From IMG/VR virus record IMGVR_UViG_3300035670_000977, positions 1 through 29,789 of that record: DNA of 29,789 nucleotides. One strand, written 5' to 3'. The notes beneath the pieces are model-generated. The model did no database searches. It worked only from the letters and a program-made list of their open reading frames with translations, and was not told where the DNA came from. The DNA is from a virus. Of the stretch, positions 22,712-27,169 are shown piece after piece. Numbering within the stretch: position 1 is the stretch's first letter; every line of letters starts with the position of its first letter. Position numbers and translations under genes: made by a program.

Positions 22712-22877
22712 GCAATTCAGGGATAGGTAACACTTGGACCGCTAAGCCCAAGATGTGATCGTTTGACGGCGCTAACTCAGTGAGCCGCGCCACAAAGTCA
22801 TCTGATACCTCTTGCGGATCCTCATTGTCGCTCTCAACGACGATGGTGTATTCAACCTCAAGGACGTACTGCCTCAT
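22695..22877 (-). CDS. Hypothetical 60-residue protein
   Basis: ATG 22877 is chosen because it shares ATGA with the metallophosphoesterase stop; an ATG five codons upstream lies in that gene. The sequence has a beta strand Q-Y-V-L-E-V-E-Y-T-I-V-V-E-S, an acidic loop D-N-E-D-P-Q-E-V, a helix D-D-F-V-A-R-L-T-E-L, and I-L-G-L-A-V-Q-V-L-P. This suggests a small alpha/beta fold. The family is not recognised. It is coupled to both neighbours. Confidence 0.65.
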   Translation of the reverse strand: MRQYVLEVEYTIVVESDNEDPQEVSDDFVARLTELAPSNDHILGLAVQVLPIPELRGSSD

Positions 22878-23725
22878 ACCGTCGGTCTGCATGTGATGTC
22901 AACACCACCGCGCTCTCTTGGTCTTAGCGTCATCCAGATACCACCTAGGGACTTTGGCATCACGATACGCTCGATCGCCCAACCGCCAGTAGCACCAAAC
23001 TCTTGCTTGTAGGTGCCGGTTTGCAGGTGCCAGCGTTGCTCAACCCATGCCTTGCCATTTTCCGCGATGCGGTAACACGGGTGCGCAACGATGCTGCGCT
23101 CGTGGTTGTGACCATTCACCATGATGTCAGCATCAGGCGCGATCTGCGCATAACGACCGCCCCCCATGGTGCCTTTGGTGACGATGCCGCCCCATGCGCC
23201 ATGATGGAAGAACAGCGTGCAGCGGCGTGTTCTGCCTGCTTCTTGCCTGAACGCAAACCGCACAAAGCCTTGATAGCCCATGTGCTCGGTGACGGCACCA
23301 TCGTTGCGCATCAGCCGCACCACGTTCTCCAGCGGGTCGATCTCTTGATTGTTGAGCACAGCAGTTTCGTGATTGCCATCGCCCATCATCAGGATCATGT
23401 CGCCGTAAGGCTTGAGCAGATCGGCTGATTCGCGGAATACCAAGTCAAAGTAGTTACCGCCTAGGTGTTCTGGTCTGATGTCGCCTTTGCTGCCGCGACG
23501 GTCTTTCTTGCCTTGCATCAGGCACAACACATCACCAAACATCAATGCATGACCGCCAAGGGCTTTGCATTCTTCAAGGTGCTGCAGCAGCAGCCTGCGG
23601 TCGCATTTTGGGTTGTCGAGGTGAATGTCTGACAGCAGCAGGAACGTTGCCTCTTCCTTGTGGCTGTGATACGGTATGCGTATCTCTAGAAGCTCTGGCG
23701 ATACTCGCGTCGATGTGATCGCCAT
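22874..23725 (-). CDS. Calcineurin-like metallophosphoesterase
   Basis: This 283-residue enzyme carries the metal-binding motifs in order: D33-I-H35, G-D65-V, G-D-G-N118-H119-E, H174-H175-G and G-H-N-H-E at 205-209. These build the two-metal active site of calcineurin-like phosphoesterases. The substrate cannot be read from the sequence; nuclease (Mre11/SbcD-like), nucleotide or protein phosphatase activities are all known. It lies after the endolysin gene in the late minus-strand block, separated by 28 bp. Phage members are often uncharacterised. Confidence 0.85.
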   Translation of the reverse strand: MAITSTRVSPELLEIRIPYHSHKEEATFLLLSDIHLDNPKCDRRLLLQHLEECKALGGHALMFGDVLCLMQGKKDRRGSKGDIRPEHLGGNYFDLVFRESADLLKPYGDMILMMGDGNHETAVLNNQEIDPLENVVRLMRNDGAVTEHMGYQGFVRFAFRQEAGRTRRCTLFFHHGAWGGIVTKGTMGGGRYAQIAPDADIMVNGHNHERSIVAHPCYRIAENGKAWVEQRWHLQTGTYKQEFGATGGWAIERIVMPKSLGGIWMTLRPRERGGVDITCRPTV

Positions 23726-23753: not shown

Positions 23754-24836
23754 CTAATAGTCCCATCTGACTCTTGGCCTGCCTTGACGTATCCCAAGAT
23801 GCACGAAGCCTTTAGGCGCGCCATAACCGAGTGAATACGGCCATTGCTTATCGCACCAGCTCTGGACGGCTTTAATGTCAACGCCTTTGACGTAGAAGTC
23901 CACCGCACCGACGCTGGGAGCGTTGTACAGGTGCTCTGATGCACTGGCACCACCTACTGAGCGATTGATTGCTGGCGGTCGATAGCCGCTGGTGATCACA
24001 ATGGGCTTACCGCCAAATGCGCTGCGCACACGCTCAAGGAATGCAGCCAGCTCAGCAGCCGTGTCAATTTGATGCTGATGGTCAAATCTGCGCGGTTCTT
24101 GATCAAGCGCAAACTCACCGATGCGGATATGTGGCGTGATGCGTGCGCTGAATGGGCTTTTGGGCGACAGCTTGGCAGGTTGCTGCTGGATCTCGACGCG
24201 GCTGCCAGACCATAGTTTGCCTTCGGCTTCACGACGACGCCTAAGGCCAGCCTCGAAGCTGCTGCCGGGATTGCGATATAACAGCATCGCCTCAGGCACC
24301 GCAGGCCAGTCACGCTCACGCAGCCGCTTGCTGATCGTTTCAAAACCAGCAGCACCATAGAAGCCACTGCCGAGGTTGTAGGCAAAACTGATCAATGCAG
24401 ATTTCTGATAATCTTCCATCTCTTGCCAATGCGGCACGGTGGTGCGCAACCGCTCAGCAATGCTGTCAACCTCTTGCCGCAGAAGCATGTCAGCCTCGAC
24501 GCGGTTGATCTTGTCGCCTTGCTTGACCCTGCGACCATCGGTGTAGCGCGTCGTACCCCAGCCGATTGTCCACACGCCAGCAGGGCACTTGTACGCCTCA
24601 AGGTGGCAGCCCTCGAACTGCTGGATTATCTTGAGCGCAGCGCTTAGGTCAGCCTGCTTGCCCGACTGGCTCCAAGTGCTAAACCACGGCTGATCCCTAT
24701 TTAACAGATCAGGCGCAACCTTTAATAGCTGCTGCTCTAATTCAACGATGGCGGCAGCCTGATGCGGCAGCCCACGCCAGTACTTAAACAGCGCCTCAAG
24801 TCTGACTGGTGTCTTTGTCACGTTTCCATGGTGCAT
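23754..24836 (-). CDS. Two-domain endolysin: GH24 lysozyme plus M15 peptidase
   Basis: This is a 360-residue lysis enzyme. The N-terminal domain is a GH24 muramidase with E75-x8-C84-x5-T90 (F-E-G ... Y-K-C-P-A-G-V-W-T-I-G-W-G-T), the variant in which Cys replaces the usual Asp. A linker rich in P, S and Q (about 212-235) leads to a peptidase M15 domain with S-G-Y-R-P-P near 283-288 and zinc ligands H302, D313 and H346 (S-E-H, A-V-D-F, F-V-H-L). It would cut both the glycan and the peptide parts of peptidoglycan. No signal peptide is seen, so it should need a holin. The start overlaps the end of the frameshifted upstream gene. Confidence 0.9.
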   Translation of the reverse strand: MHHGNVTKTPVRLEALFKYWRGLPHQAAAIVELEQQLLKVAPDLLNRDQPWFSTWSQSGKQADLSAALKIIQQFEGCHLEAYKCPAGVWTIGWGTTRYTDGRRVKQGDKINRVEADMLLRQEVDSIAERLRTTVPHWQEMEDYQKSALISFAYNLGSGFYGAAGFETISKRLRERDWPAVPEAMLLYRNPGSSFEAGLRRRREAEGKLWSGSRVEIQQQPAKLSPKSPFSARITPHIRIGEFALDQEPRRFDHQHQIDTAAELAAFLERVRSAFGGKPIVITSGYRPPAINRSVGGASASEHLYNAPSVGAVDFYVKGVDIKAVQSWCDKQWPYSLGYGAPKGFVHLGIRQGRPRVRWDY

Positions 24837-25193
24837 GAATGGACATGGCGCCGCCTAGCAATCGGCTATCGCCAGTTTGCAGCTCTGGATCTATCGGCTC
24901 TTCGCGGATGGTAGGCGATGCAGTATTTGGCGGCTGACTGGTGTGCCATTTGTCGATTTCGGCGTCGATTTTTGCAGGCAGGGTCAGCTCAAACCACCAC
25001 CGACGGATGGCTTGCTCTAGACGCCGCTCCCATGCAGGCTTGCCGAATCGGATCAGCCCTTTTTTGCTTTGATGGCACGCAGGGCGTGAAACACCAATTG
25101 GATGATGCTGTTGTCACGCAGCGGCGACAGTGCGATCAGCTCAGACGCAGCAGCAACAACGATCCAAAAAGCAGGATGAGACAGAAATTCCAT
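24796..25193 (-). other. Predicted -1 frameshift product of the small membrane-protein gene
   Basis: The short gene starting at 25193 contains A-AAA-AAG (25065-25059) in its own frame, two codons before its stop. Slipping by -1 there joins an 87-codon open frame that ends at TGA 24796, giving 132 residues in all. The extension (starts G-L-I-R-F-G-K-P-A-W-E-R-R, then W-W-F-E-L-T-L-P-A-K-I-D-A-E-I-D-K-W, then Pro/Glu-rich) looks fully coding, yet it has no ATG, GTG or TTG start before its last 17 residues. A sequencing error in the six-A run is the main alternative. It overlaps the endolysin start by 41 bp. Confidence 0.6.
25053..25193 (-). CDS. 46-residue holin-like membrane protein
   Basis: From ATG 25193 to TGA 25053, the peptide has an N-terminal hydrophobic segment F-W-I-V-V-A-A-A-S-E-L-I-A-L (about 9-22), a second amphipathic or hydrophobic helix S-I-I-Q-L-V-F-H-A-L-R-A-I (about 29-41), and a basic end K-A-K-K-G. 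The small size, one or two membrane helices, basic C-terminus and position just before the endolysin gene suggest a holin or holin partner. It starts 1 nt after the previous stop. A slippery site near its end may give a longer form. Confidence 0.65.
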   Translation of the reverse strand: MEFLSHPAFWIVVAAASELIALSPLRDNSIIQLVFHALRAIKAKKG

Positions 25194-25194
25194 G

Positions 25195-25446
25195 TCAGCA
25201 CATAGGTGGCCGTGCTTCCAGCATAGTCACGCGCTGCTCGACGCCATTAAGACGAGTGAATGTTTCTTTGCGGTCTTCTTTGATATCAGTATGAAGCACC
25301 TCAAGCTGCGTGGCGATGTGCTCAACAGCAGCGGTCAACCTGATCACGGCATCACGGGCTTCGTCATTGCGGCGCGAAAATCCCATGGCACCCATCGCTG
25401 CCACTGAAATGGACGCACCAGCGACAGCAGCGACGACTTCGATCAT
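25195..25446 (-). CDS. Membrane protein with coiled coil (lysis accessory candidate)
   Basis: This 83-residue protein has an N-terminal hydrophobic helix V-V-A-A-V-A-G-A-S-I-S-V-A-A-M-G-A-M-G-F (about 4-23), then an arginine-rich turn and a long heptad-like helix (about 30-78: L-T-A-A-V-E-H-I-A-T-Q-L-E-V-L, then F-T-R-L-N-G-V-E-Q-R-V-T-M-L). This signal-anchor plus coiled coil resembles spanin or hemolysin XhlA-like lysis proteins. It lies in the lysis block just before the holin-like gene. Function is inferred from topology and position only. Confidence 0.65.
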   Translation of the reverse strand: MIEVVAAVAGASISVAAMGAMGFSRRNDEARDAVIRLTAAVEHIATQLEVLHTDIKEDRKETFTRLNGVEQRVTMLEARPPMC

Positions 25447-25593: not shown

Positions 25594-26837
25594 CAGGTAG
25601 CGATCAATCCAAGGGTGCGAAGATGAGCCAGAGCAGCCTCTAGTTTGGCTTCCAGCTCAACACAATACTCAAGCAGTTCTGTCACCGTTGGCGTTGTTGC
25701 ATCAGCAATCGTGACGCTGCCATCAGCCGTTGGTAATGCACCCGACGTGGCAGTGGTAGTCAGGTTGGCAACCGCAGCAGGCTGTACAACAGGCGTGGCA
25801 TTGTAAAACCCGATCTTTTGCGTTGTAGCCGTCCCGATCTTGGTGCCAGTTGTGGTGTCAAAGACCAGATCAACAGCATCAGCAACGGTGATCGCAGCAG
25901 GCTCAAGCGTGACCTTCGTGGTCAATGCGCCATTGTCAATCAGCTTGATGCGCAGTCTGCCATCTTCAGTTGCATCACTAGCATCAACAATGCTGCCTTC
26001 AATGGCGCAATAATCGACCTGCGTCGGCGGTGAGGCGTCATTGTGCGCCCGATAGAACACCGTGCTGATCAGGTCATCATCCTGCGCAACGGTCGTGTCA
26101 CCACGCTTATGCAGCATCGTGATGTCAGCCGCAGAAGCAGCATCGTCAACAACCGCCTCAACATTCAACGCTGTACTGGTGACAGTCGTGCTGACATGCA
26201 ACGGATAGGCAGGATCTGGCTCATGCACGCCGACGTACTGCCCCTTCAGTCTGACGCGCATGGCAGATGTGCCAGCATCAGCGCTCATCAGGTCAACAAT
26301 GCCAACCTCTGCAGCGCTAGTCGGGCTTGATGCCGTAGCAGTCAGTTGACCATAGACCTGATCATTGCCTGCGCTGTCTTTGCCGCGAAACTCAATGTTG
26401 CCAAGGTTGTCATTTGCCGCAGGGCTGCTGCTGTTGCGGTACAGAACCAGATCCGGCGCTGTATCAAGCCCGCTGTCGGTGTTCTCAATGATGACCTGAT
26501 CGGTCGTGTCAGAACTGAACAGGTGCAACTGCGCGGCAGCGGTGCCAGTGCCCAGTTGAAAGCCTGTAGTCGTAAATTTTCCGATCAGCGCGCTGTTATT
26601 GGCAAACGCCGTTTCGTTGGTGCCGCTGCGATAGATGCCGGTCAGGCCAGTATCAGCAGTCCATGCCAGCCCCGGAGCGCCAACGGTGCCGCTGGGCAGG
26701 TTACGCAGGAAGGTGCCGTATTGGATCTTTTTGTTCTTGTTGGCAGCCGTTGCCTCCGAGTCATCAACGATCGGCAGCAGGTCTGCTGCAACTGGTGCAG
26801 TCAGTTCTGTCAGATCTGTAATTTTCTGGTCAGCCAT
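25593..26837 (-). CDS. Tail fibre or virion surface structural protein
   Basis: This 414-residue protein starts MADQKITDLTELTAPVAADL, a typical adaptor start of phage fibre-like proteins. The body is rich in G, T, S, A, D and N with short beta repeats, for example T-G-I-Y-R-S-G-T-N-E, H-L-F-S-S-D-T-T-D-Q and V-G-V-H-E-P-D-P-A-Y-P-L-H-V. It resembles the head segment of S74-type fibres but ends with a coiled coil (L-L-E-Y-C-V-E-L-E-A-K-L-E-A-A-L-A-H-L) and no S74 domain. It probably forms a trimeric fibre or tail appendage used in host recognition. Confidence 0.75.
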   Translation of the reverse strand: MADQKITDLTELTAPVAADLLPIVDDSEATAANKNKKIQYGTFLRNLPSGTVGAPGLAWTADTGLTGIYRSGTNETAFANNSALIGKFTTTGFQLGTGTAAAQLHLFSSDTTDQVIIENTDSGLDTAPDLVLYRNSSSPAANDNLGNIEFRGKDSAGNDQVYGQLTATASSPTSAAEVGIVDLMSADAGTSAMRVRLKGQYVGVHEPDPAYPLHVSTTVTSTALNVEAVVDDAASAADITMLHKRGDTTVAQDDDLISTVFYRAHNDASPPTQVDYCAIEGSIVDASDATEDGRLRIKLIDNGALTTKVTLEPAAITVADAVDLVFDTTTGTKIGTATTQKIGFYNATPVVQPAAVANLTTTATSGALPTADGSVTIADATTPTVTELLEYCVELEAKLEAALAHLRTLGLIAT

Positions 26838-27169
26838 CAGCTATTCCAAGGCAGGCCGGTCAGTTTGGTCGGATTGATGCGCTCTTCAATTTGAGCGGTC
26901 AATGCGGCTTCGACTGCTGCCACTTTATCGGCACCCAGCTTGTCTTTCACCCAGCCGGTCACGATCTCAGCGGTCAGATTCTCGAACGGGATCAGCTTTT
27001 TGCTAGGGCGCTCCAGACCGATGCTGCCGTAAGCGCTGGCAGTGTACGGGTTGCCTTCAGCGTCAAGCTCATCTGAGATGGCAGCCACGACGTAGTGCGC
27101 TGTGAAAACGTAGCCGTCGGCGGATTCGCGCTCAAGGTTGGCGATCGCCCAGTTGTAGGTGGTGGTCAT
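26837..27169 (-). CDS. Conserved phage protein near tail fibre genes
   Basis: This 110-residue protein starts MTTTYNWAIANLERESADGY, followed by V-F-T-A-H-Y-V-V-A-A and a helix-rich second half with T-G-W-V-K-D-K-L-G-A-D-K-V. Similar proteins with the T-T-x-Y-x-W-x-I-x-x-L-E-R start occur beside fibre genes of cyanobacterial and other aquatic phages (DUF7936-like, from memory). A role in fibre attachment or assembly is plausible. Its stop overlaps the start of the next gene by 1 base. Confidence 0.7.
   Translation of the reverse strand: MTTTYNWAIANLERESADGYVFTAHYVVAAISDELDAEGNPYTASAYGSIGLERPSKKLIPFENLTAEIVTGWVKDKLGADKVAAVEAALTAQIEERINPTKLTGLPWNS

Follow-up and report, generated by a model that had tools for sequence, protein, structure and literature searches.

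Does a small membrane-protein gene lying just before a phage endolysin yield two proteins by programmed -1 ribosomal frameshifting near its 3' end? The question is raised by a 29.8-kb virus record (29,789 nucleotides, the whole of which we call the window), which carries portal, terminase, head, helicase, sigma-factor, and tail-fibre genes and whose nearest sequenced relatives around this locus are Synechococcus phages such as S-CBS3. On the minus strand, where all features described below are located, a 46-codon ORF (25193-25053) runs from ATG to TGA and encodes a 46-aa protein with a single transmembrane (TM) segment. This short form (25053..25193, stop included) matches phrog_22542, a family of unknown function (E 1.3e-29). 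The 3' end of the ORF reads AAA GC[A AAA AAG] GGC TGA, in which the slippery heptamer A_AAA_AAG (25059..25065) is in frame and separated by a single codon, GGC, from the 0-frame stop TGA (25053..25055). From 25059, the -1 frame is open for 87 codons and ends at TGA 24798-24796, so that the tail with its stop spans 24796..25059. The 45 residues of the short frame and the 87 of the tail would add up to a 132-aa frameshift fusion (24796..25193), a long form that is inferred from the heptamer and the conservation of both frames. No start codon was found before the junction in the tail frame of the window, and the earliest ones after it occur at codon 66 (TTG) and codon 71 (ATG). The initial annotation had claimed an in-frame A_AAA_AAG near the end of the 46-codon gene, an 87-codon open -1 frame giving a 132-residue product, and no start in that frame until near its end. 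All of these claims held, with coordinates and counts confirmed.

As a plain string, AAAAAAG is not rare in the window (2 seen against 2.9 expected). What takes the heptamer beyond chance is its in-frame placement and its conservation together with the -1 tail, not the rarity of the string. When viral contigs were searched with the 132-aa fusion as query, 219 relatives were returned, and the first 80 were kept. Every one of these 80 has its tail in frame -1 with respect to the short ORF, and A_AAA_AAG is present in 79. Searches seeded with further members gave 465 loci, 332 of them distinct, and an in-frame X_XXA_AAG is present in 246 of the 332, each time ahead of an open -1 tail from the same family. 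Three versions of the heptamer occur, A_AAA_AAG (183), C_CCA_AAG (46), and G_GGA_AAG (17), and throughout the 246 the heptamer is followed by the 0-frame stop after one codon (223) or directly (23). Complete tails, available for 243 of them, are 47-103 aa long and have a PW-like ending in all but a few. The relatives are not mutually independent, so we give no p-value; a greedy filter (ungapped tail identity <72%) left 61 representatives. Seven sequenced phages among the relatives keep the same arrangement, and a scan of bacterial genomes with the fusion found no relative.

In deposited phage genomes, the two frames are annotated as separate hypothetical proteins, or one of them is left out (the split or omitted set comprises L082, L083, L085, and L088). 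Two ORFs are annotated in S-CBS3 (gp21/gp22) and S-CBS1 (gp22/gp23), the S-EIV1 deposit has the tail frame alone, and the S-B28 deposit has no feature for the short gene.

Both frames bear the marks of selection. The dN/dS of the tail in the -1 frame has a median of 0.13 over 564 pairs of relatives whose tails are 78-96% identical in nucleotides, all values are below 1, and the substitutions are concentrated at third positions of the -1 frame. The tail is under purifying selection in this frame. The 0-frame stop overlaps a Leu codon of the -1 frame, and in the 221 cases with Leu this codon is CTG, CTA, TTG, or TTA but never CTC or CTT, which together make up 27% of the Leu codons elsewhere in the tails. 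This codon bias over the stop indicates that the short product is kept by selection too. At the slippery site itself, the peptide differs by lineage (x-K-K, F-P-K, or P-G-K) and the slipperiness is constant. In the A_AAA_AAG class, the heptamer begins at the third position of a codon that specifies eleven different residues across the relatives, and this position is always A.

These data bear on three explanations that do not require ribosomal slippage. A sequencing or assembly error, or a decayed gene, would be plausible for a single genome, as A6 runs are error-prone and one extra A would fuse the frames; the initial annotation had itself worried about seven A instead of six. However, the same arrangement occurs in hundreds of contigs and in the seven sequenced phages, and both parts are under purifying selection. 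We reject homopolymer error and pseudogene on this conservation, which leaves them next to no room. Transcriptional slippage at the A6 run could also join the frames, with one additional A in the mRNA yielding an identical fusion. Against it stand 63 relatives with C_CCA_AAG or G_GGA_AAG, which have the same -1 tail family and no run longer than three. These lineages argue against both transcriptional slippage and homopolymer error, and on them we reject the former, which we consider very improbable.

The third possibility is that the tail is a separate protein with its own start codon, or is reached by reinitiation after the 0-frame stop. In its favour, the tail module of one relative (L457) is an ORF that begins with GTG and overlaps the stop, and annotators called a separate ORF in S-CBS1, S-CBS3, and S-EIV1. 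However, in 230 of the 243 complete tails the tail frame offers no start codon up to and including the junction, the window has none until codon 66, and under this explanation the conservation of the heptamer would have no reason. An independent start is thus most improbable and is rejected for most members, with L457 apparently the one that does use it. The initial annotation had also proposed a comparison with related genomes. In the heptamer-bearing relatives, the slippery site and both frames are conserved, rather than one continuous frame, and the -1 frame is conserved at the protein level. With these alternatives set aside, we consider it very likely that this cyanophage gene undergoes conserved, programmed -1 ribosomal frameshifting. 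The reading rests on sequence alone, without expression, proteomic, or reporter data.

The relatives without the heptamer are informative as well. The 86 of the 332 that lack X_XXA_AAG are chiefly P60-like proteins with one continuous frame (~61-76 aa) and relatives of MedDCM-OCT-S37-C6. Profile searches place a tail beside the short gene in only three of them, L053, L343, and L457. Where the tail is absent, the heptamer is absent as well. L343 is one further member and uses A_AAA_AAC. L053 has an intact -1 tail, but its site reads GGG AAA AAG (the imperfect G_AAA_AAG), with the first heptamer base broken. It could slip via the A-site tRNA alone, or might be a low-frameshifting variant. In L457 (~850-1050), a P60-like short protein lacks the heptamer, and the tail module comes next as an ORF in its own right, whose GTG start overlaps the stop (AAGTGA). 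Both modules are apparently produced there without frameshifting. The P60 gp39 family, phrog_15106, is homologous to the short membrane protein (hhalign probability 98%). Its P60-like members differ in being continuous and heptamer-free, with a tail module adjoining in L457 only.

The three heptamer versions of this family are exactly the three that were the most efficient of 64 in E. coli with stimulators present (PMC4066793). E. coli has a single tRNA-Lys, which pairs with AAG, and its pairing with the AAA of the -1 frame is stronger (PMC5009743). Eight picocyanobacterial genomes were scanned with a relaxed tRNA pattern, which detected the tRNA-Lys(UUU) signature, confirmed by ARAGORN in the loci checked. 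The pattern found no CUU tRNA in the same eight genomes, although absence by one pattern is not proof. The window also holds a second possible slip site, A_AAG_GGC (25056..25062), overlapping the main heptamer. A slip there would yield the same -1 tail, and A_AAG_GGC or A_AAG_GGT is found in 76 distinct relatives.

Stimulators are less clear. An upstream Shine-Dalgarno-like element was found in 1 of 109 relatives and is not conserved. RNAalifold, run by group, gave only weak local hairpins and no conserved pseudoknot or hairpin common to the downstream regions, and an Rfam search gave no match. Across the relatives, the mean folding z is most negative just 3' of the heptamer (-1.28 in 60-nt windows from +20, compared with ~0 well upstream). 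This modest enrichment may reflect lineage-specific structures. In the window itself, downstream folding does not stand out (z -1.0, +1.1, and -0.6), in keeping with the earlier statement that no strong downstream pseudoknot is seen.

The X_XXA_AAG sites of E. coli dnaX and the IS3 family are the closest counterparts in mechanism. They belong to the same heptamer class, with AAG read by tRNA-Lys(UUU), and their two products likewise share an N-terminus. In dnaX, slippage gives the shorter product, whereas in the cyanophage gene it would give the longer one. In addition, the cyanophage gene differs from these sites in having no detected Shine-Dalgarno-like stimulator or common downstream structure. 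In λ gpG/gpGT, T3 gene 10, and phage A2, some of the product gains a C-terminal domain through a -1 slip close to the end of the gene (PMC5009743), as predicted here. Those are tail or capsid genes, whereas the cyanophage case is a lysis-cassette membrane protein. The criterion for a G/GT tail assembly chaperone is not met, the next gene being an endolysin and not a tape measure.

What would the two proteins be? Models of the short form and the tail were made separately, not as the 132-aa fusion, and were too small or uncertain for a fold-similarity search. The short form is modelled as a hydrophobic helix (residues 7-22, peak hydropathy 1.84) followed by a second helix (29-44) with a basic end. 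Ser17, Glu18, Asn28, and Gln32 are invariant across its alignment, P60 gp39 included. The C side carries a more positive net charge than the N side in 244 of 244 relatives, which predicts an N-out/C-in topology and hence a cytoplasmic tail. The cytoplasmic tail proposed in the initial annotation agrees with this prediction. The tail is modelled as a long helix (8-40) followed by a mostly extended region (mean pLDDT 72.6). It contains a conserved C-terminal motif, LLGGAMSIHAPW (24826..24861), supported by the alignments and related to a motif in podovirus tails and phrog_6464, and in the window it ends in APW. No match that would suggest a function for the tail was found in family libraries or the PDB.

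The gene order supports membership of a lysis cassette, which we regard as likely. The usual order is a TM/coiled-coil protein, the frameshift gene, and the endolysin. In the window, the upstream gene (25195..25446) encodes an 83-aa protein (phrog_26178, E 4.9e-43) with a hydrophobic N-terminal segment and a heptad-like helix, which is weakly similar to the hemolysin family phrog_937 (E 0.002). The endolysin (23754..24836) has Phage_lysozyme and Peptidase_M15_3 matches above cut-offs and belongs with phrog_28234; its ATG at 24836 lies inside the tail frame, so that its start overlaps the end of the tail. Most relatives, in all three heptamer classes, have the coiled-coil homologue upstream and the endolysin directly downstream. 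The earlier placement of the gene just before the endolysin thus held in the window and in most relatives. In about ten podovirus-type relatives such as S-B28, terS follows instead of the endolysin, and in S-EIV1 the neighbouring genes differ from the usual cassette. In P60, the homologue gp39 is located with the endolysin gp37 and the coiled-coil gp38. Around the cassette of the window, on the same strand, a DNA repair exonuclease-like protein (phrog_7339, 22874-23725) comes after the endolysin, and a DUF7936 protein (26837-27169) lies upstream.

The N-terminus of the endolysin has no hydrophobic segment, and a holin is therefore expected nearby. The short protein of the frameshift gene and the coiled-coil protein are both possible candidates. 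The short form meets two holin traits, being small with at least one membrane helix and encoded beside the endolysin. However, neither it nor the tail matches a holin family in Pfam, NCBIfam, or PHROG, and no family library calls the short form or the coiled-coil protein a holin. Since it matches no described holin family, we do not class the short form as a holin.

Two further explanations accept the frameshift and differ in its purpose. The main role might be translational coupling, in which shifted ribosomes would reach the endolysin start and the slip frequency would set endolysin translation. In agreement with this, in 216 of 217 measurable cases the start of the longest ORF downstream precedes the tail stop (median -29 nt), and the endolysin ATG of the window lies within the tail frame. 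However, coupling alone does not call for the conservation seen in the tail protein and its C-terminal motif, and the starts were taken from the longest ORF, so the overlap may be overstated. Coupling as the main role appears unlikely, though it could hold alongside the lysis explanation.

Alternatively, the two proteins may have a role outside lysis, for example in packaging, in virion assembly, or in a membrane process of infection. This remains possible. In its favour, terS directly follows in the S-B28-like podoviruses, S-EIV1 has different neighbours, and the tail motif recurs in phrog_6464 proteins, which in T4-like cyanophages sit near gp3 or nucleotide-metabolism genes. Against it, the endolysin immediately follows the gene in most relatives of each of the three heptamer classes, an endolysin without a hydrophobic start leads one to expect a holin close by, and P60 gp39 is grouped with gp37 and gp38.

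The motif at the C-terminus of the podovirus -1 tails (ETGSFGEDGWSISLTSPW) is found in stand-alone proteins of T4-like cyanophages, namely phrog_6464, of unknown function (hmmscan E 7e-4, hhalign probability 96%). Carriers of this type include L228 (P-RSM1 CPPG_00176), L229 (S-SSM7 SSSM7_283), L230, and L565-L644. The phrog_6464 protein differs from the frameshift product in being a separate ORF elsewhere in the genome, with no TM or short part, and it shows no significant similarity to the tail of the window. In L469/L470, a phrog_6464-like ORF is located elsewhere on the other strand, and the short protein there has no heptamer. The common motif may hint at a shared partner, which keeps a non-lysis role possible.

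Returning to lysis, we propose that most ribosomes would stop at the 0-frame stop and make the 46-aa single-TM protein, predicted to be N-out/C-in. A minority would slip on A_AAA_AAG, or on C_CCA_AAG or G_GGA_AAG in other lineages, and make the 132-aa form carrying the 87-residue cytoplasmic tail that ends in the APW motif. At a set low ratio, the long form may modulate the holin-like short form through its tail, so that lysis would be tuned. Taken as a whole (a frameshift gene, two forms, a lysis cassette, and a holin-like role), this account is likely, with slippage, holin function, and lysis tuning all inferred. Its weakest part is a holin or holin-like function of the short form, modulated by the long form to tune lysis; this rests on inference only and could as well prove wrong as right. 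The programmed frameshift proposed by the initial annotation is thus supported; actual slippage and lysis timing by two forms are still inferred in the absence of expression data.

The λ S holin/antiholin offers a comparison for how such a system might work, with a small membrane-protein gene beside the endolysin and two forms at a set ratio. λ S uses two start codons for its two products. The cyanophage gene does not meet this dual-start criterion (two in-frame starts and two N-termini). Its forms would instead share the N-terminus and differ at the C-terminus by frameshift, and its holin function is inferred. The MS2 lysis gene, overlapping the coat frame, historically tied frame errors to a phage lysis gene (PMC5009743, PMC10885494). 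Its expression relies on termination and restart in the overlapping gene, whereas a fused protein is predicted here.

The conserved phage frameshifts known so far serve in tail assembly and in making virion proteins, and holins are unmentioned in the main text of a review (PMC5009743). In the open-access literature searched, we found no earlier report of a frameshift in a lysis-cassette membrane protein; subscription papers were mostly outside this coverage. This use of frameshifting beside phage lysis genes is apparently unreported. In a bolder reading, which is no more than possible, siphovirus- and podovirus-type cyanophages would set their lysis clock by slippage, the tailed form restraining or triggering the holin and its tail binding a shared partner via APW. 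In that case, a tail-like module would persist as a gene of its own in some phages (L457 and the phrog_6464-like ORFs).

The frameshift reading would explain why S-CBS1, S-CBS3, and S-EIV1 were deposited with such ORFs as separate hypothetical genes. In addition, this one gene family offers a natural comparison of the three best -1 heptamers, and the prediction is open to direct testing in cultured phage-host pairs. If it is true, cyanophages would make two forms of a lysis-block protein at a ratio set by translation.
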